Source of the DNA: a virus
Reading direction: 5' to 3' (one strand)
IMG/VR virus record: IMGVR_UViG_3300028844_003458
Location: 1-25,970 of that record
DNA: 25,970 nt
Part shown: positions 205-22,770 of the stretch, piece after piece
Position numbering within the stretch: position 1 is the stretch's first letter
Layout: every line of letters begins with the position of its first letter
Translations under genes and position numbers: made by a program
Notes under the pieces: model-generated
What the model saw: only the letters and a program-made list of their open reading frames with translations
The model's database searches: none
Told to the model about the DNA's origin: nothing

Positions 205-1647
205 TTATTGTTCTTCGTCTGAGTGTAATTCGTTTAACAGTTGTCTCAGTTTGCCACCCTCTACTGTGGCCTTGACTTTGACCCCTAATGCATCACCCTT
301 ACGTGGATCTGGCACTTCTGGTCTCGCATCTGTGGATGCATCTCCACCCGTAACTTTGGATGTTTGTTTCAATGAATCGTAAATCTTGTTCTTGCCCTGT
401 TGATTGTAGCTCTGTGAATCATCCTCATCCAGACTTCTGATTCTCAAACTGTCCACGTCAAACTCAAGATCCACTTTCTGTCCAACACCAGAACTTGATC
501 TTGTTTTCATAAACTGTATCTGATACCTGCCACGTTCCTTCATTGCTCGGCTTGTGAATATACCTATCACGTTGTCTGCTGTCTGTATCTTGGATAGTCC
601 ACCTGATATGTGACTGTGGTCAAACTCTATCTCTTCAACACTGGCTCTGTTCAACTGTGATGCCGTTGCCAACACACACTGTTTCTCCACGACCAAGTTC
701 CTCAGTTCTTCACTCACATACTTGTCCTTGATGAACAAGTCCGCCGGCGATATCTTCTTACTCTTCGGCATCATTAGATCCAAGTAGTCGATCAGTATGC
801 AGTCTACCTTCTTCTTGTTCTTTAATTCTAGTTCCTTGAGATATGTCCTCACATCCAATACATTACTACCACTTGGCAAGTATTTGATCTGTAGGTTACC
901 TGATTTCTTCTTCAACATCTTGACCTTCATCTCGACATTGTCTATCTCCGGGAATACTTTTTTAGTTGGAATATTTGTCATCATTGCATCTAGTCTCATG
1001 GCTGTCAGTTGTTCACTCAATTCAAAAGATATGTAGCACACATTCAATCCTGCCTGTGCCCAGTTCACTGCGAGATTCTGCAAGAACAAACTCTTACCTG
1101 CACCCGAACCACCTGCGAATATGTTCAGCTCTCCCCTGTTGAATCCACCAAAAAGTTTCTTGTCTAGATTTTGCCAACCTGTACTGATCTGTCCGTTGTT
1201 GTCTTTGAGTGCTTCTAGCCTTCCTCGAGGATCTTCGAAGTAGTCTGTTCCGAGATCCCTGGTCAGTCCCACATTGACTGCATCCTTGACCATGTCTTCC
1301 ACAGGAGCATAATCTCCCTTCTCCAGCATGTCTGCCGATTGCAGTATCGCATGTTCCAGTGCTTTGTGTCTTGAAAATGTTTCAAATTCATCTAGTAACC
1401 AGTTGAAGTGACTTGGATCCAGATCCTTTGCTGATTTCAGTTTGATGTCGTGCTTGGCGTTCACTTGTTCCACATCAGGCATGACCTTGTACTCGTCCAT
1501 GTAGTCTTTGACGAACTTGGCTATAGGCTGTAGTTTACGATCGAACGATTCTGGTTTGAATATGTTCTGTGCCCGTGCGAATGATTCCGCATCCGCTAAG
1601 AGCATCTCTATATAAAGTTTTTGTACATCAAATGTGTATTCAGCCAT
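205..1647 (-). CDS. gp41: Replicative DNA helicase, DnaB-like, T4 gp41 type
   Basis: This is the hexameric 5'-3' helicase that unwinds the fork and pairs with the gp61 primase in the T4 primosome. The 480-residue length fits gp41. The N-terminal ~150 residues match the helical primase-interacting region by position. The RecA-like core follows: Walker A GGSGAGKS at about 179-186, the SFELSE segment with the expected catalytic Glu near 209, Walker B CILIDYLDLM near 283-292, and a TASQLNR motif with the sensor Gln near 331. The C-terminal ~60 residues are low-complexity and charged. The primase gene lies two genes upstream, separated by an SGNH-like gene, and all three read the same way. The start at 1647 is 6 bases after the previous stop, and no strong ribosome site is visible. 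Confidence 0.95.
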   Translation of the reverse strand: MAEYTFDVQKLYIEMLLADAESFARAQNIFKPESFDRKLQPIAKFVKDYMDEYKVMPDVEQVNAKHDIKLKSAKDLDPSHFNWLLDEFETFSRHKALEHAILQSADMLEKGDYAPVEDMVKDAVNVGLTRDLGTDYFEDPRGRLEALKDNNGQISTGWQNLDKKLFGGFNRGELNIFAGGSGAGKSLFLQNLAVNWAQAGLNVCYISFELSEQLTAMRLDAMMTNIPTKKVFPEIDNVEMKVKMLKKKSGNLQIKYLPSGSNVLDVRTYLKELELKNKKKVDCILIDYLDLMMPKSKKISPADLFIKDKYVSEELRNLVVEKQCVLATASQLNRASVEEIEFDHSHISGGLSKIQTADNVIGIFTSRAMKERGRYQIQFMKTRSSSGVGQKVDLEFDVDSLRIRSLDEDDSQSYNQQGKNKIYDSLKQTSKVTGGDASTDARPEVPDPRKGDALGVKVKATVEGGKLRQLLNELHSDEEQ

Positions 1648-1681: not shown

Positions 1682-2373
1682 TCTAAAAATAAATCACCAA
1701 ACACTCTGTGGTAATCTTCACCCCAGTGATCGTTATCTGTTCCTAGACCAGCATTAATTTTATTAGCGTAATTGTCAAACCCGTACTTGCCTTCGACTAG
1801 GAATATTTTATTCCAATCTATGTTTTGGTAAAGACCATCAATGTATTTTTTCAGTGAACTTGTGCACCTAGTCCTTTCTCTATGATCCACTAGTGTGAAA
1901 TAATATTCTAAGTTATTACTTTTACAGAAAGACTGGCAGAACAATACGTTTTTAAGGAACAACAACTCTAACAGGTTATCATCATAGTAATTTGTTATCA
2001 ACTTTGTGTATTGATCTTTATGTTTTATGGCCAATTGTTTGGCCGCCCAATCTTCTTTGCCATCGTCTGATAAGCCTCCGAACGAACGGGGACTGGCATT
2101 AAAATTACAACTATTTTTTGTGAAGTGTATTCGTTCAGGATAGGTGAACATAATCAATATCAGACCTTTATTGTGTGCATGTCTCACAAGTTTCAACGAT
2201 ATGACATCGTTTGAACAACCAGGATAAGATTTATTTACGATGTCTGTTTGATCGAACATGTGATATGCCCATGACTTCTTGCTGTAGTCGTTCCACGGTT
2301 CATGTAATGACGCATCATCTATTCCTGCTCCATATGTGTGTGAGTCGCCTAGTAATAGTATATCTTTAACCAT
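1654..2373 (-). CDS. SGNH/GDSL-like hydrolase family protein
   Basis: The protein has 239 residues. It opens with a short beta strand and LLLGDSHTYG, the block I motif of SGNH/GDSL hydrolases with the nucleophile Ser near residue 11. A YPGCSND segment near 55-61 fits block II. TDNDHWGEDYH near the C-terminus fits block V, where Asp and His of the triad sit. Family members are esterases, lipases or carbohydrate O-deacetylases; the substrate here is unknown. The start overlaps the primase stop by 8 bases, so translation is probably coupled. It is odd that it sits between primase and helicase. A second SGNH-like gene lies at 17075 in the glycan cluster, and this one could serve the same glycan. 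A structural rather than catalytic role is possible. Confidence 0.7.
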   Translation of the reverse strand: MVKDILLLGDSHTYGAGIDDASLHEPWNDYSKKSWAYHMFDQTDIVNKSYPGCSNDVISLKLVRHAHNKGLILIMFTYPERIHFTKNSCNFNASPRSFGGLSDDGKEDWAAKQLAIKHKDQYTKLITNYYDDNLLELLFLKNVLFCQSFCKSNNLEYYFTLVDHRERTRCTSSLKKYIDGLYQNIDWNKIFLVEGKYGFDNYANKINAGLGTDNDHWGEDYHRVFGDLFLDWINKEKVL

Positions 2374-3379
2374 ACATCTTTCTTTTCAGATCAATCTTTA
2401 ATTTGTTTGACTCTGTAGTTTTTAAGATTGACTGTATCACGAATAACCTTCCGTATTTCGCCACAGCATCAGCCACATCGCCGATCGTTTTGTCCCACTC
2501 TGGAAATGCCACACTCCATCCAAACTCTGTCGCTTGATCTACTAGTTTCTGCCCAGGGGCATCTCTGTCTGGCACAACAATTACCTGTCTGCCAAGTCCG
2601 TCTATCAACTCCCTTTGTGTATCATTTATCTCTGATCCCAGTATGCTGACACCAGATACGGCTATGGCGTCAAAAGGTCCTTCTGTGACTATGACAAACT
2701 TCCTTGTCCAGTCCTGAGCATCCATGTTGAACACGTATCCCGGCCACACATCTGTGTAATACTTCACCCCTTCTGACTCTTCGAACATCCTCCCTGTAAA
2801 CCCAACAACTTCTCCTCTCCAGTAGAAAGGTATCAGCAATCTTTGATGGATGTCCCAGGTCTTGTCAGGTGAGTACATGAAGTCATACCAGTCGGCACCT
2901 ATGCCCCTTCCCTCTAGGTACTTCAGTAATCCGTCTATCTTCTTCCATTGTGGTTCCGTGAGATCATTGCCCACGTACTTCTCCAACCACACGTCCAGTT
3001 TGTGTGCGTTCTTGGGCAGTGTCTTGTTCTTGAAAGTCACGAATTTCTTTTTCTCATACTTGACATCGCCTTCTTCCTCACGCATGGCCTCTATGGCCAA
3101 TTTACGTATGGTGTCTTCGGGTATTCCGATGTAACTCATGAACTGCCTCATCTTGTAGGTCAGTTTACGTCCTATCACATAACTGGCCTTGAACCCACAG
3201 TTGAAACAATGGTAACTCACAGTGCCGTCCGCACTTGTCATCAGTCCTCCACGCTTCTTCTTGTCAGCGGTCTCTCCATTGTACACACAACAGGGTGCGT
3301 TGAAACTGATCCATCCGCTTGGGGTCTTCTTTCTGTTCGCAGGCAGGCCAGTCAGAATTGTATTCTGTATAAGATTCAT
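2366..3379 (-). CDS. gp61: DNA primase, T4 gp61 type
   Basis: The primase makes RNA primers for lagging-strand synthesis and works with the gp41 helicase. Near the N-terminus, cysteines at 30-31 and YHCFNCGF at 56-63 form a zinc-ribbon-like site as in DnaG and gp61 primases. The TOPRIM core follows: VTEGPFDAIA near 231-240 with the conserved Glu at about 233, and VVPDRDAPG near 268-276 with the DxD metal site. The 337-residue length is close to T4 gp61. A good sigma70-like promoter lies just upstream within the end of the virion-like gene, with the -10 only 10 bases before the ATG and no Shine-Dalgarno sequence, so the message may be leaderless or nearly so. Downstream it overlaps the SGNH gene by 8 bases. 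Confidence 0.93.
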   Translation of the reverse strand: MNLIQNTILTGLPANRKKTPSGWISFNAPCCVYNGETADKKKRGGLMTSADGTVSYHCFNCGFKASYVIGRKLTYKMRQFMSYIGIPEDTIRKLAIEAMREEEGDVKYEKKKFVTFKNKTLPKNAHKLDVWLEKYVGNDLTEPQWKKIDGLLKYLEGRGIGADWYDFMYSPDKTWDIHQRLLIPFYWRGEVVGFTGRMFEESEGVKYYTDVWPGYVFNMDAQDWTRKFVIVTEGPFDAIAVSGVSILGSEINDTQRELIDGLGRQVIVVPDRDAPGQKLVDQATEFGWSVAFPEWDKTIGDVADAVAKYGRLFVIQSILKTTESNKLKIDLKRKMYG

Positions 3380-4228: not shown

Positions 4229-4603
4229 ATGAACGAGATTTTTAACACATTGAGGGACAAGTTCCCATTCCTGAGCCTGATCAGAAAGGGCGATTTGGAG
4301 TATGTGGGCATAGTACAGAACGAGGACGCCAATGTGATCAGTTTCTATGACTACGGCAGGCTGATGATGCCACAGGACAAGATGAAGTTCCTCAAGTGTG
4401 GGGAGACTTGGTGGCACGAGTCCAATCGTAAATTACCAATCAACATATTCCTAAAAGGCGAGTTCAGATACTTTCGTTCAACCCTGATCACACTCAACTC
4501 CAAGGACGTGGAGATCGTGCATGGTCCCACAGTCAAACTGTCAGAAATTTCAAAGAAACGGGTGAAGAGAAGAACTATCCAATTAGTTAGAAGACCTACT
4601 TAG
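4229..4603 (+). CDS. Conserved-looking hypothetical protein, 124 residues
   Basis: I do not recognise a family. The protein is compact and well mixed, with a central KCGETWWHESNRKLP stretch near residues 54-68 and a strongly basic C-terminus (KKRVKRRTIQLVRRPT), which could contact nucleic acid. It has no signal peptide or membrane segment. It is one of only a few plus-strand genes in the left third and is transcribed divergently from the late virion-like gene. There is no clear Shine-Dalgarno sequence. The reverse strand over this interval has no better reading frame, and the codon pattern resembles the neighbouring genes. Confidence 0.7.
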   Translation: MNEIFNTLRDKFPFLSLIRKGDLEYVGIVQNEDANVISFYDYGRLMMPQDKMKFLKCGETWWHESNRKLPINIFLKGEFRYFRSTLITLNSKDVEIVHGPTVKLSEISKKRVKRRTIQLVRRPT

Positions 4604-4734: not shown

Positions 4735-5325
4735 TTAGTTTTTTGATGTCTCATCAAAACTATATTTAGCCCTGTTGATCAAATTCATCTGCACCACTAT
4801 GGCCTGTGCATATGCCACAGCGTGTGATTTCTTGAAGAAGTAACTGCCGTCTGTGGGTTTTACCCAAACTTCTTTCATTATATCTACCCAGTCCTTGTGC
4901 ATAAGGTGTCTCTTGGCTGGACGTATAATTGCTAATACAGCCGCAAGTTGTTCTATGGTCCGCGGTTCTAGTTTGGACACTATGTTGTAGTGGCCATTTA
5001 GGTGGAAAAGGTTTTCCACTATCTTTGGATCTTTCAGCATGTCCCAGTCCGGTTCCTGTATCATGAGCTCTACAAGTTCCTGTTCTGATTTCACGTCCTT
5101 GTATATGTTCACGTTCAAGCAATCTATCTTGAAGTAACCTCTGTCTTCCGCCTGTTTGTAATCTAGACTCGCATGTCCCGTCACAGGGTGTTCCGGTACT
5201 GCATGGAAGTACACGCCTGTCTTGTGTTTCTCGGACTTGCCGTCTTTGATCATTGACGCTGGTGTGTGTTTGAACAACTTCAATGTGTTGTCTCTGTCAA
5301 AGAAATCTATGTCTACATCAGGCAT
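4735..5325 (-). CDS. Miniature DnaE-like (DNA polymerase III alpha catalytic-motif) protein
   Basis: The 196 residues carry the active-site landmarks of bacterial DnaE in the right order, without the intervening domains. MPDVDIDFFDRD at 1-12 matches the DnaE PDFDVDF strand, with the two metal-binding Asps at 5 and 7. TGVYFHAVP..HPVTG then leads to GYFKIDCL at 63-70, matching the DnaE VKFDFLGL strand, with the third Asp at 68 and the adjacent conserved Lys at 66. LAAVLAIIRP near 127-136 matches the IALVALxRPGP region. FFKKSHAVAYA at 163-173 matches GxxKSHSAAYA. A full DnaE is roughly 1,100 residues, so PHP, most of the fingers, beta-binding and OB domains are absent. Function is unknown: it could be a small nucleotidyltransferase, a polymerase accessory factor or a degenerate domain. 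The start is coupled to the gene before it by TAATG. Confidence 0.7.
   Translation of the reverse strand: MPDVDIDFFDRDNTLKLFKHTPASMIKDGKSEKHKTGVYFHAVPEHPVTGHASLDYKQAEDRGYFKIDCLNVNIYKDVKSEQELVELMIQEPDWDMLKDPKIVENLFHLNGHYNIVSKLEPRTIEQLAAVLAIIRPAKRHLMHKDWVDIMKEVWVKPTDGSYFFKKSHAVAYAQAIVVQMNLINRAKYSFDETSKN
4738..4744 (-). other. Possible -1 frameshift slippery heptamer A_AAA_AAC
   Basis: The last sense codons of the DnaE-like gene read TCA AAA AAC followed directly by TAA, which places the classic -1 slippery heptamer A_AAA_AAC exactly in frame. A -1 slip would continue through 29 further Lys-rich codons to a TAA at 4651-4649. No clear downstream stimulatory structure is seen, and the tract is A-rich, so this is a candidate only. 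Confidence 0.3.
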
Positions 5326-5489: not shown

Positions 5490-5722
5490 TAGTGTACACT
5501 CCCTTTGTCCTTTGCCGCATGTTCTATCATTTTCTCCCTGGAGCCTGGTTGTAAAACTTCCAACACATCAAGCAGTTTTCTGTAACCTTCTGTTTTCAGT
5601 AAGTCCTTGTCAACTTTTGGCATTATTACTCTTCCTATGGAACCATCCTCTTTGATTATCACGGCACAGTCTCCGTCATCGAATTCTAAATTATCAGACA
5701 CTTCTAAATCTATCTTAGACAA
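5489..5722 (-). CDS. Hypothetical protein, 77 residues
   Basis: This is a short soluble protein with no recognised family. The N-terminal half is acidic and strand-like (VSDNLEFDDGDCAVIIKEDGSIGRV); the C-terminal half is helical and mixed in charge. The start overlaps the end of the zinc-finger gene by 8 bases, and its TAA overlaps the ATG of the 54-residue membrane protein, so it belongs to the same tightly coupled run that leads to the DnaE-like gene. Confidence 0.75.
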   Translation of the reverse strand: MSKIDLEVSDNLEFDDGDCAVIIKEDGSIGRVIMPKVDKDLLKTEGYRKLLDVLEVLQPGSREKMIEHAAKDKGSVH

Positions 5723-6398
5723 TCTTGGCCTCCCTTGCTGTGTCCTGTACCAGCATGTGATCAGCGGGATAGCTCTTCAACTTGCTTGGCCAGAAACTGG
5801 TGTTTATGAATCTTTCTATCATTTGTAATTGTTCGTCGTTGAATGATTTTAACATCCTTTTGCCTGCGTTGCAACCTAACAGCAACCATGGACTAATCTT
5901 TCCCTGTTGTATGTGTTGTACCGCTCTGTTCTTGTTCACCAGTCTGAAGTAGTCCGACCATTGTGCATTCTGTTCTGTGGCCCAGTCCATCATGGTTGCT
6001 ATGCTCCTTTGCAGTGCGGCCTCGACCGGTTCTGACTTCAGTGCTTCGATCAAGTACATCTCATAGAGGTCATCCCTGGCCCAGTGGTCCAGTTTGACCT
6101 TGGACTGAAGCACATAGTCTATGTACTTGTCAGGGTACAAGGGGTTGATGTGCATTATGAATCTTCCGAACTTGACGAAAGCGTTGTAGTACGAACTCTT
6201 GACGAAATCGTCGTAAGTTTTTGTTTTTGAATTGTGTTGGTGTATCTGATAGAATCTCTGGAACACCATGAATGCGTTGACCACCCATTTCTCATCACGT
6301 TGTAGATACCTTCTCTTTGGCTCACACAAGTGTACCTGTAGTGTACGTTCCTTAGCAAACTCCTTGCCACAGTATGTGCATTTATTTGTCGATGCCAT
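5715..6398 (-). CDS. Zinc-finger-containing hypothetical protein
   Basis: The 227-residue protein begins with CTYCGKEFAKERTLQVHLC (residues 7-25), a CxxC-x12-H finger resembling the C2H2 type, with Cys at 25 in place of the usual second His spacing. The rest is mostly helical and aromatic-rich, with no enzymatic motif I can name. It lies directly after the probable gp62 gene, overlapping it by 17 bases, and before the coupled small genes. A nucleic-acid-binding or replisome-associated role is plausible from the finger and the neighbours, but this is inference. Confidence 0.72.
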   Translation of the reverse strand: MASTNKCTYCGKEFAKERTLQVHLCEPKRRYLQRDEKWVVNAFMVFQRFYQIHQHNSKTKTYDDFVKSSYYNAFVKFGRFIMHINPLYPDKYIDYVLQSKVKLDHWARDDLYEMYLIEALKSEPVEAALQRSIATMMDWATEQNAQWSDYFRLVNKNRAVQHIQQGKISPWLLLGCNAGKRMLKSFNDEQLQMIERFINTSFWPSKLKSYPADHMLVQDTAREAKIV

Positions 6399-7048: not shown

Positions 7049-7535
7049 AGTCCACCTGTTCACACTGTCTCGATATGTCCTTGACAAAGTAGGCGCACAT
7101 GGGTTTTGGGCCATTGTTCAAAGGCACAGCCAACATCTGGCCCGACTTGATCTTGGGGAAATACCATTTCACTTCTGTGTAGATATCCACCACGTCTATT
7201 GGATGGAAGTCTGGTTTTGGACTTGATAAAGGATTGAATGTGAAAGCATCGAACCCCCTGTCGTTGAGACTCGTGATTGGTAAAACATGCATTTCTGATT
7301 GTCCCGCCTCTCCTATCAACATTTTCCAGTCCAGTGGCATCTTTATCTTGTGTGGTCCAATCTCTAGAACCGCCGCTGGTGCATTGAAACTTTCCAAGAA
7401 GATCAAAGGTATGTAGAAGAAATCCGGATTCGCAGGGTCCGAATTGTCTAGCACAGCGAATCGCAACTTGTCATCAACCCATTCCGGTATCTTTTCTAGT
7501 GTGTATGTTCTGTTATCCAGAGTAAGGATTTTCAT
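7032..7535 (-). CDS. Hypothetical protein, 167 residues, downstream of uvsW
   Basis: This is a soluble, strand-rich protein with many Pro and aromatic residues and no catalytic motif I recognise. It begins MKILTLDNRTYTLEKIPEWVDD and its last third holds KWYFPKIKSGQMLAVPLNNG. The start lies 23 bases inside the end of uvsW, so the two genes are probably translationally coupled. The product may be a partner of the replication and repair proteins around it; I infer this only from position. Confidence 0.75.
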   Translation of the reverse strand: MKILTLDNRTYTLEKIPEWVDDKLRFAVLDNSDPANPDFFYIPLIFLESFNAPAAVLEIGPHKIKMPLDWKMLIGEAGQSEMHVLPITSLNDRGFDAFTFNPLSSPKPDFHPIDVVDIYTEVKWYFPKIKSGQMLAVPLNNGPKPMCAYFVKDISRQCEQVDYGSVW

Positions 7536-8979
7536 AATTTATCTTTTCTATATTATACGGGTAATTGGCCTCTTTGTAAAACTTTTTCCTTGCCCCTAGG
7601 TGTCTTTTTGCAAACTTGCAACTGCTGGTAATGTCCCAGATCTGTACACTGTCTTTGTCTTCCGCTTTCCTGATTCCACGTCCTATGCTCTGGATCACCC
7701 TCACGAACGACTTACCTGGTTCTATGAGAACAAGATTAAAAATCCTAGGAATGTTAATGCCAACAGCGGCAACTCCATATGTGGCAATAATAACTTTATT
7801 TGTCGCAGTAGATATTTCATCATATTGTTCCTTCCTGTCTGTGTTTTTGGTCGATCCGGACACGAACACCGCATCTGGGATCTGCTCTTCAAGTATTTCA
7901 CCTGCGGATATCCTGTCCACGAGTATCAGTGTGTTACCTGAACTCGATATGTCTTTGATTGTGTTGGCTACCCATTTCATTCTGGTCTTGTCTGTGGTCA
8001 GCCATTTCAGTTCCTCACCGTAAGTTTTGAACTGTGGATGATCCTGTGTCTGCAACACGTTTACGTGACAGTTGGCCAACACACCTTTGTCTTGCAATTC
8101 GCTGGCCTGTATCCTGTTAGACACTTCACCAATACTACATTTCAATCCCATGAACTCGTAATCTGCTTTTGGTACTGTACCTGTGAGCCCCCAACGTATG
8201 CCACAGTGTGCGAAAGGTCCTGTCAGCAATCTCTTCAGCACATCGGCCTTGGCCATGTGTACTTCATCTATTATTACGGTGTTTATGCCTTGTATGGCCT
8301 CTAGGAAATCTGTGGTGTGTTCGTCCTTGCTTTTCTTCTCCAGCACATTCAGTGACTGCCAGGTCGCTATTGTGTTGAACCTTCCTAGTTCTTTCCGGTC
8401 ACCGTAGTACACACCGACGTCTAAGTTACAAGCAAGGAAGTCTTCTTCTGTCTGTGTGACAAGACTCTTGTTTGGGACTATGGTCAGTGTCCTTCCATAC
8501 GGTTCGACCAGTTGGCACAGTGCCGCTGTAATAATGGTCTTACCTGCACCAGTGGCGATCTCTTGTATGCTCTGTGGATGTTCTATGAATTTATTGATTG
8601 TCTCTACTTGATAGTCTCTCAATTCGATTGGTTGTCCCGCCGCCGGATGATTCTCTGGCCACGTTATGTGTGATAGATAATTCTTGTCCACGGCTTTGAA
8701 TTCAAAGTTGTGTTGTTGTCTACGATCTTCTACGTCTATGTACACACCACCCTCGTCCAGTATGGGCAGTATCTGGTCAACTAGATTCAGGTATGTTGTC
8801 CCACCCAGACCAAAGAAACTTACCTTGCCATCCCACCTGCCCAGTTTGACAGCAGGTAGATGCCTGGCATATGGTATCTCATATTTGAATTTGTTTGATA
8901 GACGCTTCCTCCATTCGAGGCTTAGGTTCTCGAACTTCACGTTCACTTCGTCTTTTATTACTAATTTACAACTGCTCAT
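7513..8979 (-). CDS. uvsW: UvsW-type SF2 DNA helicase / branched-DNA translocase
   Basis: UvsW unwinds branched and R-loop structures during T4 recombination-dependent replication. The 488-residue length fits. The N-terminal ~110 residues match the UvsW substrate-recognition domain (VKFENLSLEWRKRLSNKF, then HLPAVKLGRWDGKVSFF). SF2 motifs follow in order: a Q-motif-like ELRDYQ near 119-124, Walker A IATGAGKT near 141-148, DEVH near 238-241, motif III LTGT near 265-268, and motif VI QSIGRGIRKAE near 430-440. The C-terminus SSCKFAKRHLGARKKFYKEA is typical of the family. It starts 1 base after the stop of the 459-residue gene and is probably co-transcribed from the promoter at 10395-10422. Confidence 0.95.
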   Translation of the reverse strand: MSSCKLVIKDEVNVKFENLSLEWRKRLSNKFKYEIPYARHLPAVKLGRWDGKVSFFGLGGTTYLNLVDQILPILDEGGVYIDVEDRRQQHNFEFKAVDKNYLSHITWPENHPAAGQPIELRDYQVETINKFIEHPQSIQEIATGAGKTIITAALCQLVEPYGRTLTIVPNKSLVTQTEEDFLACNLDVGVYYGDRKELGRFNTIATWQSLNVLEKKSKDEHTTDFLEAIQGINTVIIDEVHMAKADVLKRLLTGPFAHCGIRWGLTGTVPKADYEFMGLKCSIGEVSNRIQASELQDKGVLANCHVNVLQTQDHPQFKTYGEELKWLTTDKTRMKWVANTIKDISSSGNTLILVDRISAGEILEEQIPDAVFVSGSTKNTDRKEQYDEISTATNKVIIATYGVAAVGINIPRIFNLVLIEPGKSFVRVIQSIGRGIRKAEDKDSVQIWDITSSCKFAKRHLGARKKFYKEANYPYNIEKINYENPYSG

Positions 8980-10425: not shown

Positions 10426-10908
10426 ATGAAAAGGACCAGCAAGAAGACCGTATCGGTCAGGAAACAACTCAAAATAAAACTGGAAAATACTCTGACTAGG
10501 CGAAAGCACATCAGGAACTACAAACCCACACATTCTTTGGCACTATATTGGTTTAGGCATCTCAACAAAGGATTATTTGGTAATCAACTACCCGCAGTGC
10601 CATTGTACCTGGTAAGAATGACCAACGACTGGGGCAGGTGTTGGGCCAATTGGGATAACAGGAAGTGTAGGAAAGGCACATACGATCAAAGCGTCATACC
10701 CTATGACAAAACAGATGTCACATTCGCAATTGAAATACACACCAAGTATCCAACTTTCAGAGATTTCATAGAAACGCTGGCCCACGAGATGGTCCACTTA
10801 TATCAGATGACAGTGTTGAAAGATCCATACAGCAACCACAACGCCAATTTCTATTCGTTCAAGAATAAATTCAAGAGTGCGGGTTTGACCCTATCAAGAA
10901 CCGGATAG
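10426..10908 (+). CDS. SprT-like zinc metalloprotease
   Basis: The 160-residue protein carries the SprT-family active site ETLAHEMVHLYQ near 116-127, with zinc ligands His120 and His124 and catalytic Glu121. A downstream NHNANF near 137-142 supplies the likely third ligand. An upstream YWFRHLNKGLFGNQLP segment near 41-56 matches the helix and strand that precede the HExxH in SprT/Spartan proteins. Relatives such as Spartan cut proteins cross-linked to DNA, which suits its place beside uvsW. The N-terminal 30 residues are very basic and may bind DNA. No Shine-Dalgarno sequence is clear. Its 3' end overlaps the convergent gene by 15 bases. Confidence 0.85.
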   Translation: MKRTSKKTVSVRKQLKIKLENTLTRRKHIRNYKPTHSLALYWFRHLNKGLFGNQLPAVPLYLVRMTNDWGRCWANWDNRKCRKGTYDQSVIPYDKTDVTFAIEIHTKYPTFRDFIETLAHEMVHLYQMTVLKDPYSNHNANFYSFKNKFKSAGLTLSRTG

Positions 10909-17764: not shown

Positions 17765-18551
17765 CAACAAGAACAGTAAAGCATACGAAGTATTCAACGG
17801 TGTGCAAAAGTCTTGGCCAGAGCAAACAAGAATGTTGAACAATCAAACCGAGACAGATCCCGTGGCCAATAGTATGTTTTGGGGGTTCGTTGGAAATAAT
17901 AGGGCAATGGTGAAAAAACTTGAAGCACGTAAGCACAATTTTTGGTTCACAGATACTCCATACTTTGGAAGATTTGACAACAATAATTTAAAGCCAGACA
18001 ATCATTATTGGCGTATCTGTAAGAATAAAATTCATGCGTCGTATATCAAGATGTGTAAGTCTGACAGGTTTGATAAATTTGGGATCAAAATTAAAGCACC
18101 CAACTTCAAAGGCAGTTACGTATTGGTGTGTCCTAGTTCGCCTGGCATACACAGTTACTTGGATAAACCAAATTGGACAAATGACATTGTAGAACAAATC
18201 AAACGATACACGGACAGGCCAATCAAAATTAGACAAAAACCGAGAGGCAGGGGGACATCAGGACCCAGTGAGGCAACAGTGCCATTGTCTGAGGACCTCA
18301 AAGATGCTTGGGTGTGTGTCACGAGTTGTTCCATAGCGGCAGTTGAAGCACAGTGCATGGGCATACCTGTAATATGTGACGAAAAAAGTTTTGCCAAAGA
18401 TGTGGGAGGACAAGAACTTGCAGACATCGAAAATCCTTATTTTGTTGGTTGCGAAGATTGGCTCTACAGTTTGGCCTACCAACAGTTCACGCCGGAAGAA
18501 ATTGCCAACGGTAAAGCGGTAGAGATACTAATGGACAAGGGGTTGCTGTGA
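17739..18551 (+). CDS. GT-B-like glycosyltransferase (paralogue D)
   Basis: These 270 residues mirror paralogue C on the other strand. FWFTDTPYFG near 68-77, YVLVCPSSPG near 127-136, EQIKRYTDRPIKIRQKPRGR near 152-171, WVCVTSCSIAAVEAQCMGIP near 191-210 and YSLAYQQFTPEEIANGKAVE near 243-262 occur in the same order and spacing. In place of the RPHP motif of A and B it has IRQKP. Because its nearest relative is on the opposite strand about 2 kb away, an inverted duplication or separate acquisition is likely. It starts inside the SGNH gene and ends in a GTGA junction with the next gene. Confidence 0.74.
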   Translation: MLTIYAPFNNKNSKAYEVFNGVQKSWPEQTRMLNNQTETDPVANSMFWGFVGNNRAMVKKLEARKHNFWFTDTPYFGRFDNNNLKPDNHYWRICKNKIHASYIKMCKSDRFDKFGIKIKAPNFKGSYVLVCPSSPGIHSYLDKPNWTNDIVEQIKRYTDRPIKIRQKPRGRGTSGPSEATVPLSEDLKDAWVCVTSCSIAAVEAQCMGIPVICDEKSFAKDVGGQELADIENPYFVGCEDWLYSLAYQQFTPEEIANGKAVEILMDKGLL

Positions 18552-19174
18552 AGATAGAAAAAGTTAACGGTTTCTGGGTGCCATCTAATGACATACACTT
18601 AGATCAATGGAAGGCAGGACAACCCTTCACTCAAAATAAATGTCTATTGAAGTTCCTGGATTACTGCGGTTCTCAAAATAAAAAATTTAATACAGTGATT
18701 GACATAGGCGCATGGTGTGGAACGTGGACAAAAGCCATCGAACCATATGCAAGAAAAGTGATTGCTTTCGAGCCAGACAAGACACATTTTGAATGTTTAC
18801 AACGTAATTGCACCATCAACTGTGATCCAAGAATGGAGGCCGTTGGGGCGGAAGTTAAAGAAATATCTCTGACGGAAGATGACTTCACACAGGCCAAAAG
18901 GATAGACAAAGAAGGTAAAATTCGAATGACCACAATAGATGATATGAATTATCAAAATGTAGATTTGGTGAAGATCGACGTAGAAGGTTATGAGATGGAG
19001 GTGCTCAAAGGTGCTACAAAAACTTTACAGGGTGTGCAATATCTAATGATAGAACTAAACAACAACACAAAAAAATACGGAAGCAGTAACATCGAAGTAG
19101 AAAAATATCTAGGTTCAATAGGATATAAATTATTGATGGAGCACTGGCCTGACAAAGTTTTTTACCGTGTGTAA
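18548..19174 (+). CDS. FkbM-family methyltransferase
   Basis: The start is a GTG at 18548 overlapping the previous TGA (GTGA). The 208 residues are a class I SAM-dependent methyltransferase: VIDIGAWCGTWTKAIEPYA near 50-68 (SAM-binding motif I), VIAFEPDKTHFECLQRN near 71-87 (motif II), and VDLVKIDVEGYEMEVLKGAT near 138-157, the diagnostic FkbM block. FkbM enzymes O-methylate sugars and polyketides; here a sugar of the glycan is the likely target. The usual FkbM N-terminal extension is absent. The next gene starts 19 bases further on. Confidence 0.88.
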   Translation: MKIEKVNGFWVPSNDIHLDQWKAGQPFTQNKCLLKFLDYCGSQNKKFNTVIDIGAWCGTWTKAIEPYARKVIAFEPDKTHFECLQRNCTINCDPRMEAVGAEVKEISLTEDDFTQAKRIDKEGKIRMTTIDDMNYQNVDLVKIDVEGYEMEVLKGATKTLQGVQYLMIELNNNTKKYGSSNIEVEKYLGSIGYKLLMEHWPDKVFYRV

Positions 19175-19193
19175 CTTAAATTAAATACTCCAA

Positions 19194-20198
19194 ATGAAAA
19201 TTTTTATAACAGGCGTCGCAGGTTTCCTGGGATCACATCTAGCAGACTTGATGCTGTCCCAAGGTCACACTGTGGCTGGTAATGACAACATGATAGGCGG
19301 GTATGCTGACAACGTCCCACAGAATGTTGAGTTTCATCAAGTAGACTGTTGCGATCTTGAAAATCTCACTAAAGCAATGGAAGGTTGTGACATAGTCTAT
19401 CACACTGCCGCAACGGCTTACGAAGGACTGTCTGTGTTTTCTCCTGTGCTTGTTACACGTAATATATTTGAAGCGTCGGTTACCACAATAACAGCCGCAA
19501 TAAGAAACAAGATCAAGCGTATAGTGTATTGTTCAAGCATGGCAAGATACGGCCACCATGATGAAATACCTTACAAAGAGACATACGAATGTAGACCACA
19601 GGACCCATATGGTATTGCAAAAAAAGCCGGCGAAGATGTGTTAAGAAATCTTTGTGAGACACACGGTGTGGAATATGTTATTGCTGTACCACACAACATC
19701 GTTGGGCCACGACAGAAGTATGATGATCCGTTCAGGAATGTGATGTCAATCATGCTGAATAGGATGCTACAAGGCAAACAACCAATCATATACGGCGACG
19801 GTGAACAGAAGAGATGCTTCAGCGATATTGACGATTGTTTGTACTGCTTGAATGCACTTGCATTCAATGACAATGTGGTCGGCGAAGTGATCAATATTGG
19901 GCCAGACGAAGAACCAGTCACTATCAACGAATTAGCAGAAGCGTGTGCAAACGAGACAGGCATCAACCTAGATCCAATACACCACAAAGACAGACCAAAA
20001 GAAGTAAAACTTGCCACTTGTTCTTCAGATAAAGCACGTAGGTTGTTGGACTATAATACTTCAACAAACATGAGGCAATCTGTCAAGAAGACCGCTGAGT
20101 ACATCAGGACGAGGGGAACAAAGAAATTCCAATATCATTTGCCATTAGAAATTATCAACGACATCACTCCAGACACCTGGAAAAATAAATTGATATGA
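19194..20198 (+). CDS. NAD(P)-dependent nucleotide-sugar epimerase/dehydratase (extended SDR)
   Basis: The 334-residue protein begins MKIFITGVAGFLGSHLADLM, with the GxxGxxG dinucleotide loop at 7-13. SSMARYG near 114-120 and DPYGIAKKAGED near 137-148 supply the catalytic Ser, Tyr139 and Lys143 of the extended SDR family. GDGEQKRCFSDIDD in the second half is the usual sugar-nucleotide end. It resembles UDP-glucose 4-epimerases and dTDP-glucose 4,6-dehydratases; I cannot separate these. It would supply an activated sugar to the transferases around it. It ends in an ATGA junction with the next gene. Confidence 0.88.
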   Translation: MKIFITGVAGFLGSHLADLMLSQGHTVAGNDNMIGGYADNVPQNVEFHQVDCCDLENLTKAMEGCDIVYHTAATAYEGLSVFSPVLVTRNIFEASVTTITAAIRNKIKRIVYCSSMARYGHHDEIPYKETYECRPQDPYGIAKKAGEDVLRNLCETHGVEYVIAVPHNIVGPRQKYDDPFRNVMSIMLNRMLQGKQPIIYGDGEQKRCFSDIDDCLYCLNALAFNDNVVGEVINIGPDEEPVTINELAEACANETGINLDPIHHKDRPKEVKLATCSSDKARRLLDYNTSTNMRQSVKKTAEYIRTRGTKKFQYHLPLEIINDITPDTWKNKLI

Positions 20199-20902
20199 TA
20201 TCGTTTTGCTGTCCGTCTAGGGGCAGGCCACAACTAGCACAAAGACTCATAGACACTGCCACTGCCACGCAGAAGGGCGATACAGAATTTTTATTTTACC
20301 TGAACGACGACGACGAAAAATTACAACAATACAAAGACTTACTGGACGAAAAACACTACACAGTTGGTCCAAACCAATCAACTTGTTACAGTTGGAATCT
20401 GATGGCTGACAAGGCGAGCCACGATGTTGTTATGCTGATGGGAGATGATGTGCAAGTGAACACACCAAATTGGGATCAAATAATTGTAGATGAAATTAAC
20501 AAGTTTGATGATAAGATATTGATGGTTGTGCCTTCCGATGGTAGGCCGAAGAATAGGCATTTAGGCAATGAACCTAGACTGTGGCCGGACGAGAAACTAC
20601 CAGCGGCGCATTTCGCAGTGCATAAAAATTGGACGAAGGCATTAGGTTACCTCGCTCCTGTTTTCTTTTGGCACTGGCATGTTGATTCATACACGCAGAA
20701 AGTTGCAAGGAAACTTAACAGATGCCTGTATCTGCCAACTGTGGAATTTAAAACGAAAAAGATCATCGACGACAATGCTGGAAAACAAATACGAAAAAAT
20801 TTCAACATCTCTCAAAGGGATGAATTTGTTTGGACAAAAGTAATGGATAGACATCTACAAGCGGATGTAAATGCTTTAAAGACTTTATTACGAACTGAAT
20901 AA
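20195..20902 (+). CDS. GT-A glycosyltransferase-like protein
   Basis: The 235-residue protein opens with MISFCCPSRGRPQLAQRLID, the first strand and helix of a GT2-like domain (PSRGRP near 7-12). It has YLNDDDEKL near 35-43 and VVMLMGDDVQVNTP near 78-91, where GDD fills the DxD position. FFWHWHVDSYTQKVARKLN is the acceptor-side helix. It is a likely sugar transferase of the plus arm. The start is the ATG of an ATGA overlap with the epimerase stop. The 3' end overlaps the convergent GT8-like gene by 15 bases. Confidence 0.73.
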   Translation: MISFCCPSRGRPQLAQRLIDTATATQKGDTEFLFYLNDDDEKLQQYKDLLDEKHYTVGPNQSTCYSWNLMADKASHDVVMLMGDDVQVNTPNWDQIIVDEINKFDDKILMVVPSDGRPKNRHLGNEPRLWPDEKLPAAHFAVHKNWTKALGYLAPVFFWHWHVDSYTQKVARKLNRCLYLPTVEFKTKKIIDDNAGKQIRKNFNISQRDEFVWTKVMDRHLQADVNALKTLLRTE

Positions 20903-21562
20903 ATTTATCAGTTCCTTCTTCCAGTCATCGGCGTACTCGCAGTCTCGGTATCCGTCGAACCATGGTCCGCCCTCTGTGTAGTGAAGTATTTTAGGTGTGC
21001 CATCTTTAGGTTCCTTGTACCAACCAACAAGCCAGTTATACTCCGCAGGCATCTCGCCTATCTCGTTGTCGTCCAACCAACTGAACCTGTGTAGAAACTT
21101 TGGTGATTCCTGATTCAGTAACTCTGGTGTGAGGATTTTATTTTTGGGGTGTTCGCAGTTCCATAATACCATGCTTGACCAATTTTTCCTTGGATATGTT
21201 GTCTGTACCTGCCCGTCCATCTTTGTAGTCTCCTTTGGCGTGTAGTCGTGTTGCACAACCACCACTGCTTTAGAGTTGTCACAATATTTCACGAGTTCGT
21301 GGCTTGGTATCTTCCATAAGAAGTCACAGTCACAGAACACTGCCCATCCCTTGAAGTCGTTCATGTATGGCACGAAGAACCTAGTGAACGTGAACTCGGT
21401 TGATGCCAACTTGTCCACAGGCCTGGTGTACAGCCCTTGGTCTCGCATCTGTTTTTGCTTGAGTGGGATGACCTCTGCTGATGGGTCTCTACGCTTGATC
21501 GAATGTTCGCAAACTTGATATGCTATGTCTTCTCTGCTGTCGTGTCCTACAAATATTTTCAT
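20888..21562 (-). CDS. GT8-like glycosyltransferase
   Basis: The 224 residues start MKIFVGHDSREDIAYQVCEH, the opening strand and helix of GT8-type transferases. STEFTFTRFFVP near 54-65 and GWAVFCDCDFLWK near 72-84 follow, where DCD is the metal-binding DxD. ILHYTEGGPWFDGY near the C-terminus provides the usual His/Gly donor site. It would add a sugar, probably a hexose, to a surface glycan. It forms an operon with the radical SAM gene (ATGA overlap) and converges on the plus arm. Confidence 0.8.
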   Translation of the reverse strand: MKIFVGHDSREDIAYQVCEHSIKRRDPSAEVIPLKQKQMRDQGLYTRPVDKLASTEFTFTRFFVPYMNDFKGWAVFCDCDFLWKIPSHELVKYCDNSKAVVVVQHDYTPKETTKMDGQVQTTYPRKNWSSMVLWNCEHPKNKILTPELLNQESPKFLHRFSWLDDNEIGEMPAEYNWLVGWYKEPKDGTPKILHYTEGGPWFDGYRDCEYADDWKKELINLFSS

Positions 21563-22770
21563 TTGAATATTTCTCTGGCTAATTCCGGCATGTAATTTTT
21601 AATGCTTATTTTTCTGTAATTATCTCTTTTATTGATCATGTCCATAAAATTTTTATATTTGTTTTCATCTAGCGTGTAATTGTTGATGTGGTGTCTTATC
21701 AGTGTAATCATTTCTTTCACATTGTCTGTGTGGAGTAAGTTTTGTTCTTTGATGCTGGATAATTTTTTATAGGCCTGACTCAGAACTTTTTTTGGTAATA
21801 TCGAAAAATGTAAGTAATTTGGATCGAGTACTAGATCAAACTTCACAAAGATTTTATTTTCGTAAGTAAACTCTAATAATTCATCTACGTAAAGCACATT
21901 AAGATTTTGTATTACACAGTTAATCATAATATAGGCATGACTTAGATCCTTTTTAAATCTTTTGATATTGGTGCTAACTATTTCCCACGAAGATGGGAAT
22001 CTGATGTACTCATTACACTTACCCACTCCGTCTACACTAAAAACTAATCTACAGTCTTTGAAATTTTTCAGCAAGGATATTATCTTGTCATTGCACGTTG
22101 TACCGTTAGTTGTGACATGTAATTTTATTTTTTTTGCTTGTCCCGTTTCCACAAGCATCTTGAGTAATTTAATTACACGAGGATTGACGAAAGGTTCTCC
22201 TCCTAGTATTTTTAAAATTTTCAAATCATGCTTGACTAATTCTAAAATCTTTTTATATTCTGAGTCTTTTATATCAAATTGACTTTGATCCCGGTTGTCA
22301 TAACCTAGTGCCTTATTCTCAATAAGTAATTTGGAACTACTTCCTCCACCACACATTTGGCATTTTAAATTACATAGATTTGTGATGTTCAACTGAATAT
22401 CCTCCGGAACTTGTAGATCTTCTTTACCAATCAAATTTAAATTTTTTTCATATTTGTTTTTGAATATTGCTCTGTGTTCGGTGTTAGATCTCATACGATG
22501 ACTCGATAGGCCTGCGTCTTCCTTCTTCCAACACTCGGAGCATTCGGTTGGTCTGTTGTCTTTGAAGAAACTGGACCGTAGGTACTTTAGATAATCACTG
22601 CCCCACCAGGTCTCTAGATCGGATTCTTTGATGTTATACTCTTTTTTTTCCGTGTATTCCGATTGCAAAGGCTTTATTATGCAACATGGACGAATGGCAC
22701 CATCAGTGCCTAGATGCACACTGTTGAATGGTCTAATACAGAAATTGCTTTTATTTTTTGATTTTTCCAC
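21559..22770 (-). CDS. Radical SAM enzyme with N-terminal cysteine-rich (twitch/SPASM-like) region
   Basis: NLCNLKCQMC near 131-140 is the CxxxCxxC cluster (Cys133, 137, 140) that binds the 4Fe-4S and SAM, and KILGGEPFVNP near 187-197 is the GGE motif. Before the core, CIRPFNSVHLGTDGAIRPCC (11-30) and ECSECWKK (76-83) hold five further cysteines in a pattern like a SPASM or twitch auxiliary cluster, here N-terminal. The protein is 403 residues. The reaction is unknown: it may modify a peptide, a sugar or a protein side chain. It is followed by the GT8-like gene and preceded by a HAD phosphatase gene. The DNA is more AT-rich than its neighbours, with many Lys, Asn and Ile codons, which may mark a separate origin. 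Confidence 0.87.
   Translation of the reverse strand: MEKSKNKSNFCIRPFNSVHLGTDGAIRPCCIIKPLQSEYTEKKEYNIKESDLETWWGSDYLKYLRSSFFKDNRPTECSECWKKEDAGLSSHRMRSNTEHRAIFKNKYEKNLNLIGKEDLQVPEDIQLNITNLCNLKCQMCGGGSSSKLLIENKALGYDNRDQSQFDIKDSEYKKILELVKHDLKILKILGGEPFVNPRVIKLLKMLVETGQAKKIKLHVTTNGTTCNDKIISLLKNFKDCRLVFSVDGVGKCNEYIRFPSSWEIVSTNIKRFKKDLSHAYIMINCVIQNLNVLYVDELLEFTYENKIFVKFDLVLDPNYLHFSILPKKVLSQAYKKLSSIKEQNLLHTDNVKEMITLIRHHINNYTLDENKYKNFMDMINKRDNYRKISIKNYMPELAREIFK

Follow-up and report, generated by a model that had tools for sequence, protein, structure and literature searches.

What is the role of a protein that carries the active-site motifs of DnaE, the α subunit of Pol III, in a small fraction of the length of that enzyme, and that is encoded in a replication gene cluster of a virus? 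The question is raised by a gene at positions 4735-5325 of the window, i.e., of the whole 25,970-nucleotide stretch of IMG/VR record IMGVR_UViG_3300028844_003458 that was analysed. An earlier note on this DNA had listed four motifs in the order in which they occur in DnaE, had put the protein at under a fifth of DnaE length and had considered either a DnaE relic or a new small nucleotidyltransferase. All four motifs are indeed present in the product, which has 17% of the length of E. coli DnaE (196 vs 1160 residues), and the gene, to which the note assigned no strand, is on the minus strand; a plus-strand gene at 4735-5325 was ruled out since stops close the frame. We refer to the protein and its homologues as C-units. 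The features of the window that are needed for the argument are the following:

205-1647, minus strand: DnaB/gp41-like replicative helicase, replication cluster of the C-unit
2366-3379, minus strand: DNA primase, replication cluster of the C-unit
4229-4603, plus strand: convergent gene for a 124-residue protein without a Pfam match, directly downstream of the C-unit gene
4735-5325, minus strand: C-unit, probable C-terminal half of a split minimal Pol III α, 196 residues, ATG start, PHROG 11778; by profile, model and alignment, it contains the second palm part and a shortened fingers core
4807-4830, minus strand: K166-SHAVAYA-173, fingers helix; H168 corresponds to the steric gate H760
4915-4923, minus strand: I134-R135-P136, fingers motif, corresponding to E. 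coli F638-R639-P640
5119-5130, minus strand: K66-I-D68-C, second catalytic strand; K66 corresponds to K553 and D68 to D555
5302-5325, minus strand: MPDVDIDF, first catalytic strand; D3/D5 correspond to E. coli D401/D403 and M1 to M399, the split point
7513-8979, minus strand: UvsW-like helicase, replication cluster of the C-unit

The window C-unit is a genuine homologue of Pol III α, with a similarity far beyond chance, and the condensed DnaE homologue that the earlier note had suspected is thus real. It matches PHROG 11778, annotated as 'DNA polymerase', with an E value of 1.8e-66 (C-unit residues 3-187 on positions 8-195 of the 197 in the profile). The Pfam fingers model PF17657 gives a sub-threshold E value of 0.017 with the window C-unit alone and is matched by 8 of 11 members of the C-unit family, at best with E 3.3e-5. 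A PDB search with the single C-unit sequence returned nothing significant; its top row, MutH at E 1.1, was discarded as non-significant. The homology to DnaE is therefore clearest at the level of profiles. Because DnaE matches of an 11-C-unit profile among PDB sequences were also weak (M. tuberculosis DnaE1 was hit in four collinear segments, E 0.088), profile-profile alignment and comparison of folds were used instead. HHalign, the kind of check that the earlier note had proposed, aligned a profile of 72 C-unit relatives with a profile of eight DnaEs at E 4.2e-7.

The AlphaFold2 model of the C-unit (pLDDT 90.9, pTM 0.81) leads to the same family. In a comparison with the PDB, Pol III α and PolC account for all of the top 15 rows (Z 6.2-9.5), and the next row drops to Z 3.6. 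The model superimposes on the E. coli enzyme (2hnh, residues 401-784) with Z 9.1 and 3.9 Å over 185 residues and on Taq α (3e0d, residues 461-871) with Z 9.5 over 194 residues; the structure prediction that the earlier note had called for thus bears out its expectation of a match to the Pol III palm and fingers. As modeled, the C-unit would carry the palm and fingers fold of Pol III α along its entire length.

Residue equivalences were taken from a joint alignment of C-units, bacterial DnaEs and the compact DnaEs described below. In it, C-unit M1 corresponds to M399 of E. coli DnaE, D3/D5/D7 to D401/D403/D405, H34 to H511, G37 to G514, K66/D68 to K553/D555, R135/P136 to R639/P640, and K166/S167/H168/Y172 to K758/S759/H760/Y764, so that the three metal-binding Asps and the Lys singled out by the earlier note (D3, D5, D68 and K66) are all preserved. 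H760 is the presumed sugar-discriminating (steric gate) residue of E. coli Pol III α (PMC8485763). The C-unit spans the E. coli enzyme from M399 to the fingers helix at about residue 784. In the same alignment, about 75 residues between E. coli D405 and K510 are unmatched, i.e., the C-unit is devoid of the thumb (~430-505), and the YQEQVM...RRAMGKKK stretch of the fingers has no counterpart. There is no match to the PHP domain in the C-unit, whose start corresponds to M399, and the nucleotide-binding GS motif (GRGS) is absent from its 196-residue sequence.

The GRGS part of the palm is encoded by another gene, far away from that of the C-unit. Every one of the ten reference phages encodes a second small protein of about 170-183 residues, the N-unit (PHROG 11127), which is detected with the Pfam model PF07733 (positions ~20-97). 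Its gene is separated from that of the C-unit by 11 to more than 200 kb. The idea of a self-contained small nucleotidyltransferase thus has to be abandoned. An N-unit profile finds residues 210-392 of E. coli DnaE in the PDB (E 1.4e-7), and HHalign relates the N-unit to DnaE at E 1e-8. The N-unit model (pLDDT 88) matches family C polymerases exclusively (Z 8.6-13.5), with residues 77-178 placed on residues 279-395 of the E. coli enzyme (2hnh, Z 11.3). GRGS is invariant in 81 N-units, and the dN/dS of the N-unit is about 0.16. The N-terminal ~70 residues of the N-unit (1-72; e.g., the gene at 5980-6513 of contig L104) are modeled confidently with no structural match reported, and they differ from the PHP domain that occupies this place in DnaE. 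The ranges of the two proteins abut and do not overlap: the N-unit ends at about E. coli residue 395, and the C-unit starts at 399. Alignments and models place the split point inside the palm, in the loop that leads from the FERFLN helix to the MPDxDxDF strand.

The two halves tend to occur together. Among the matches listed, 57 of 60 phage records with a C-unit are also in the N-unit list; the remaining three are a 109-kb record, a record that is N-unit-positive by PF07733, and its sister phage. All five N-unit-bearing IMG/VR contigs longer than 250 kb that were tested also carry a C-unit. A family B polymerase, with which the earlier note had supposed such phages to replicate, is encoded by each of the ten reference phages and by 8/9 large IMG/VR contigs, including these five. 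Neither an N-unit nor a family B polymerase is found in the 26-kb window fragment, and the latter is not found within the fragments of the window's own clade either. There is no natural fusion of the N-unit and the C-unit among the loci fetched. Phages RaK2 and XacN1 encode a DnaQ-type proofreading partner (PF00929), which is absent from the marine contigs tested, and so an α-ε-like core is not a general feature.

The C-unit is widespread and strongly conserved. A tblastn search retrieved 63 phage records with 36-55% identity, nearly all of them jumbo phages, infecting many hosts and including RaK2, GAP32, 121Q, PA5oct, Atu_ph07 and XacN1; IMG/VR contains more than 570 stretches with relatives. 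Across 182 distinct C-units, there is no substitution at D3, D5, D7, H34, G37, K66, D68, R135, P136, K138, H168 or Y172, whereas S167 varies between S, A and P; the conservation of the Asps and the Lys across phage homologues, which the earlier note had suggested examining, is thus complete. For the window's clade, the median dN/dS amounts to 0.05 at a median dS of 1.36, i.e., with synonymous sites near saturation, and agrees with the note's view that the active-site residues are kept under selection. Eleven C-unit matches are in cellular genome contigs (ten MAG contigs and one bin of an uncultured bacterium; L264-L274), filed as Pelagibacter, Neomarinimicrobiota, Natrialbaceae and others. These contigs in bacterial and archaeal MAGs are most probably phage contigs misbinned with their hosts or by chance.

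The surroundings of the gene are conserved as well. The order UvsW, four small genes, C-unit, convergent 124-residue gene, structural-like gene, primase and helicase is found in most of ten distant phages. A homologue of the convergent gene (27-51% identity) is beside or near the C-unit gene in 8 of the 10, and this gene is possibly linked to the split polymerase. The gene for a 227-residue protein at 5715-6398 on the minus strand (PHROG 11058) is kept beside the C-unit in most phages compared; its product has a weak N-terminal match to a C2H2 zinc finger (PF00096, E 0.0025, below the cut-off). A gene of the SprT-like metalloprotease family (10426-10908, plus strand; PF10263, E 3.5e-7) adjoins the replication cluster. 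Farther away, consecutive genes for a methyltransferase, a nucleotide-sugar epimerase and a glycosyltransferase occupy 18548-20902 of the plus strand, with a radical SAM protein gene at 21559-22770 on the strand opposite to theirs.

Judging from sequences and models, the C-unit is probably one of two subunits, the C-terminal one, of a minimal DNA polymerase of family C (Pol III α-type). Together, the two proteins cover the palm and reduced fingers: equivalents of the metal ligands, K553, R639 and H760 belong to the C-unit, and GRGS belongs to the N-unit. According to this scenario, the N-unit and the C-unit would join in trans to reconstitute a single palm, in which the C-unit would provide the two-metal site (D3/D5/D68), K66 and H168, the steric gate that senses the sugar, and the N-unit the phosphate-binding GRGS loop. 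The absence of the thumb, PHP and OB domains and the clamp-binding tail makes a distributive or specialised activity likelier than that of a replicase. The split enzyme would then probably be distributive and recruited inside the primase-helicase-UvsW replication cluster, where it may synthesise short stretches of DNA, e.g., to fill gaps, extend primers or take part in repair linked to recombination, with bulk copying left to the family B polymerase.

Since the thumb and the RRAMGKKK segment of the fingers are missing, polymerase activity of the pair is not assured. Alternatively, the assembled halves may be an active nucleotidyltransferase that is no templated polymerase and that performs template-free addition, end tailing or a reaction with another substrate. 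The loss of just these two elements, with the metal ligands and GRGS kept, would fit such an activity, as would the family B polymerase that already covers replication and the N-terminal ~70 residues of the N-unit, which have no reported structural match (residues 73-178 are covered). We nevertheless regard this alternative as rather unlikely: the invariant equivalent of H760 and the RP and KSHxxxY motifs argue for the use of dNTPs in a polymerase-like site, and the C-unit gene is grouped with those of the primase, helicase and UvsW across divergent phages.

The C-unit could also be a non-catalytic decoy or regulator that is kept for binding alone, for instance to the Pol III holoenzyme of the host or to the family B polymerase of the phage. 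It is small, half of the palm is missing from it, and its nearest cellular homologue is the host replicase. However, binding would not need the metal ligands, K66 and the steric gate, all of which are invariant in the 182 sequences down to about 36% identity, and the N-half is likewise kept, with its GRGS invariant. This possibility therefore appears very doubtful to us.

A further possibility is specific to the marine clade of the window. In six of the closest relatives of the window gene, a single-chain DnaE of 565-568 residues is encoded 4.5-5.4 kb downstream of the C-unit, behind the helicase. This compact DnaE has GRGS, a thumb and full fingers and no PHP domain, and it matches PF07733 over residues 18-260 (E 3e-43). 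Three of its loci are:

13109-14809 of contig L058, behind the helicase
13239-14933 of contig L044, behind the helicase
14004-15707 of contig L048, behind the helicase

With the compact DnaE as a query, 309 relatives were retrieved from IMG/VR, and all 21 contigs with this gene that were tested also have a C-unit, mostly 69-96% identical to that of the window. It is optional: of the 18 close C-unit contigs that extend at least 8 kb downstream, 5 have it, and in two contigs (L050 and L052) there is a 26-codon C-terminal remnant of it while the C-unit stays. It is absent from the window, including the ~205 bp past the helicase at the left end, and from the window's nearest relatives (L002, L007 and L034). 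No N-unit was found on contigs of the window's clade (up to 91 kb, with the compact DnaE or otherwise), none was revealed through gene sharing between N-unit contigs and clade contigs, and the N-unit of phage Phosso used as a query had no matches in IMG/VR. Reciprocally, no compact DnaE was found on N-unit contigs, whose C-units are at most ~55% identical to the window C-unit.

It could be supposed from these data that the C-unit of the marine clade, having lost the N-unit, now cooperates with the compact DnaE 4.5-8 kb downstream or is giving way to it. The presence of the C-unit on 21 of 21 compact-DnaE contigs, the fact that the N-unit and the compact DnaE never share a contig, and the identity of the window C-unit, which is higher with the C-units of compact-DnaE contigs than with those of N-unit contigs, are in line with this. 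Yet the compact DnaE is optional (5/18) and is reduced to a remnant in two contigs while the C-unit persists, none is encoded in the ~205 bp beyond the window helicase, and contigs of the clade reach 91 kb, while the halves can be more than 110 kb apart elsewhere. Because the clade contigs are fragments and the halves in other phages are separated by 11-44 kb or by more than 110 kb, the N-unit of the clade may have been lost or may simply be encoded too far away to be on these contigs. We give little credence to the view that the clade keeps a C-half under strong selection without its usual N-half beside an optional PHP-less single-chain DnaE, the half-polymerase being an accessory subunit of a family C enzyme or exchanging with it; the probability that we attach to this view partly overlaps with those of the two-subunit polymerase, of the non-polymerase nucleotidyltransferase and of the non-catalytic partner.

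Finally, a decaying, functionless relic of a captured DnaE, as the loss of most DnaE domains could suggest, is refuted by the selection test (dN/dS ~0.05); hundreds of intact relatives and the synteny kept at 36-55% identity speak against it as well.

The two-subunit polymerase that we favor is not without precedent. The earlier note was not aware of a described function for such a protein; in fact, Iyer, Burroughs and Aravind described in 2021 a minimal Pol III α that is split in this way in jumbo phages of group 2.2, and they put it forward as a model for the ancestral enzyme (PMC7824862); PHROGs has the annotation 'DNA polymerase'. Before that, CBB_328 was reported in 2017 as a truncated α (PMC5259590); with its 172 residues, it is probably the N-half. 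An α subunit was also noted in Atu_ph07 (PMC6102473), and one cluster of marine jumbo phages is marked by PF07733 (PMC9123017). No experimental study of the split polymerase was found in the literature searched, most subscription journals being outside it. If the proposed assembly is true, an active site is shared by two separately encoded proteins, is thumbless, and is cut between the nucleotide- and metal-binding parts of the palm; it would represent the smallest catalytic core of family C and would make it possible to test how much of Pol III templated synthesis requires. The two genes are short and can be directly expressed and assayed.

The C-unit can be compared with several known systems. 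Stand-alone small nucleotidyltransferases of the Pol β fold combine a GS motif and the catalytic Asps in one protein, whereas the C-unit has no GS. With DnaE (E. coli 2HNH/5FKU, Taq 3E0D) and PolC (3F2B), the C-unit shares the strand pair of D401/D403/D555, K553, RP and KSHxAAYA, but it lacks their PHP domain, GRGS palm half, thumb, RRAMGKKK segment, OB domain and clamp-binding region. The compact DnaE of the marine relatives and that of an uncultured huge phage (LR756508, 38% identical) resemble the C-unit in that they have the palm and fingers of family C and lack a PHP domain, and in the marine relatives the compact DnaE belongs to the same replication cluster; unlike the C-unit, it is one chain of 565-576 residues with GRGS, a thumb and RRAxAKKN-type fingers and is optional in the clade. 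The window protein belongs to the kind of split polymerase described in 2021 (PHROG 11778 plus PHROG 11127): its C-half is the same; in that system, as in the reference phages analysed here, an N-terminal nucleotide-binding and a C-terminal metal- and template-binding protein are encoded by distant genes, with a family B polymerase alongside. To that description, the present analysis adds the loss of the thumb, the split point at the level of residues, the conservation of the steric gate and a large alignment. Also new is that no N-half was detected in the uncultured marine clade of the window, some members of which have, in addition, a complete PHP-less single-chain DnaE.
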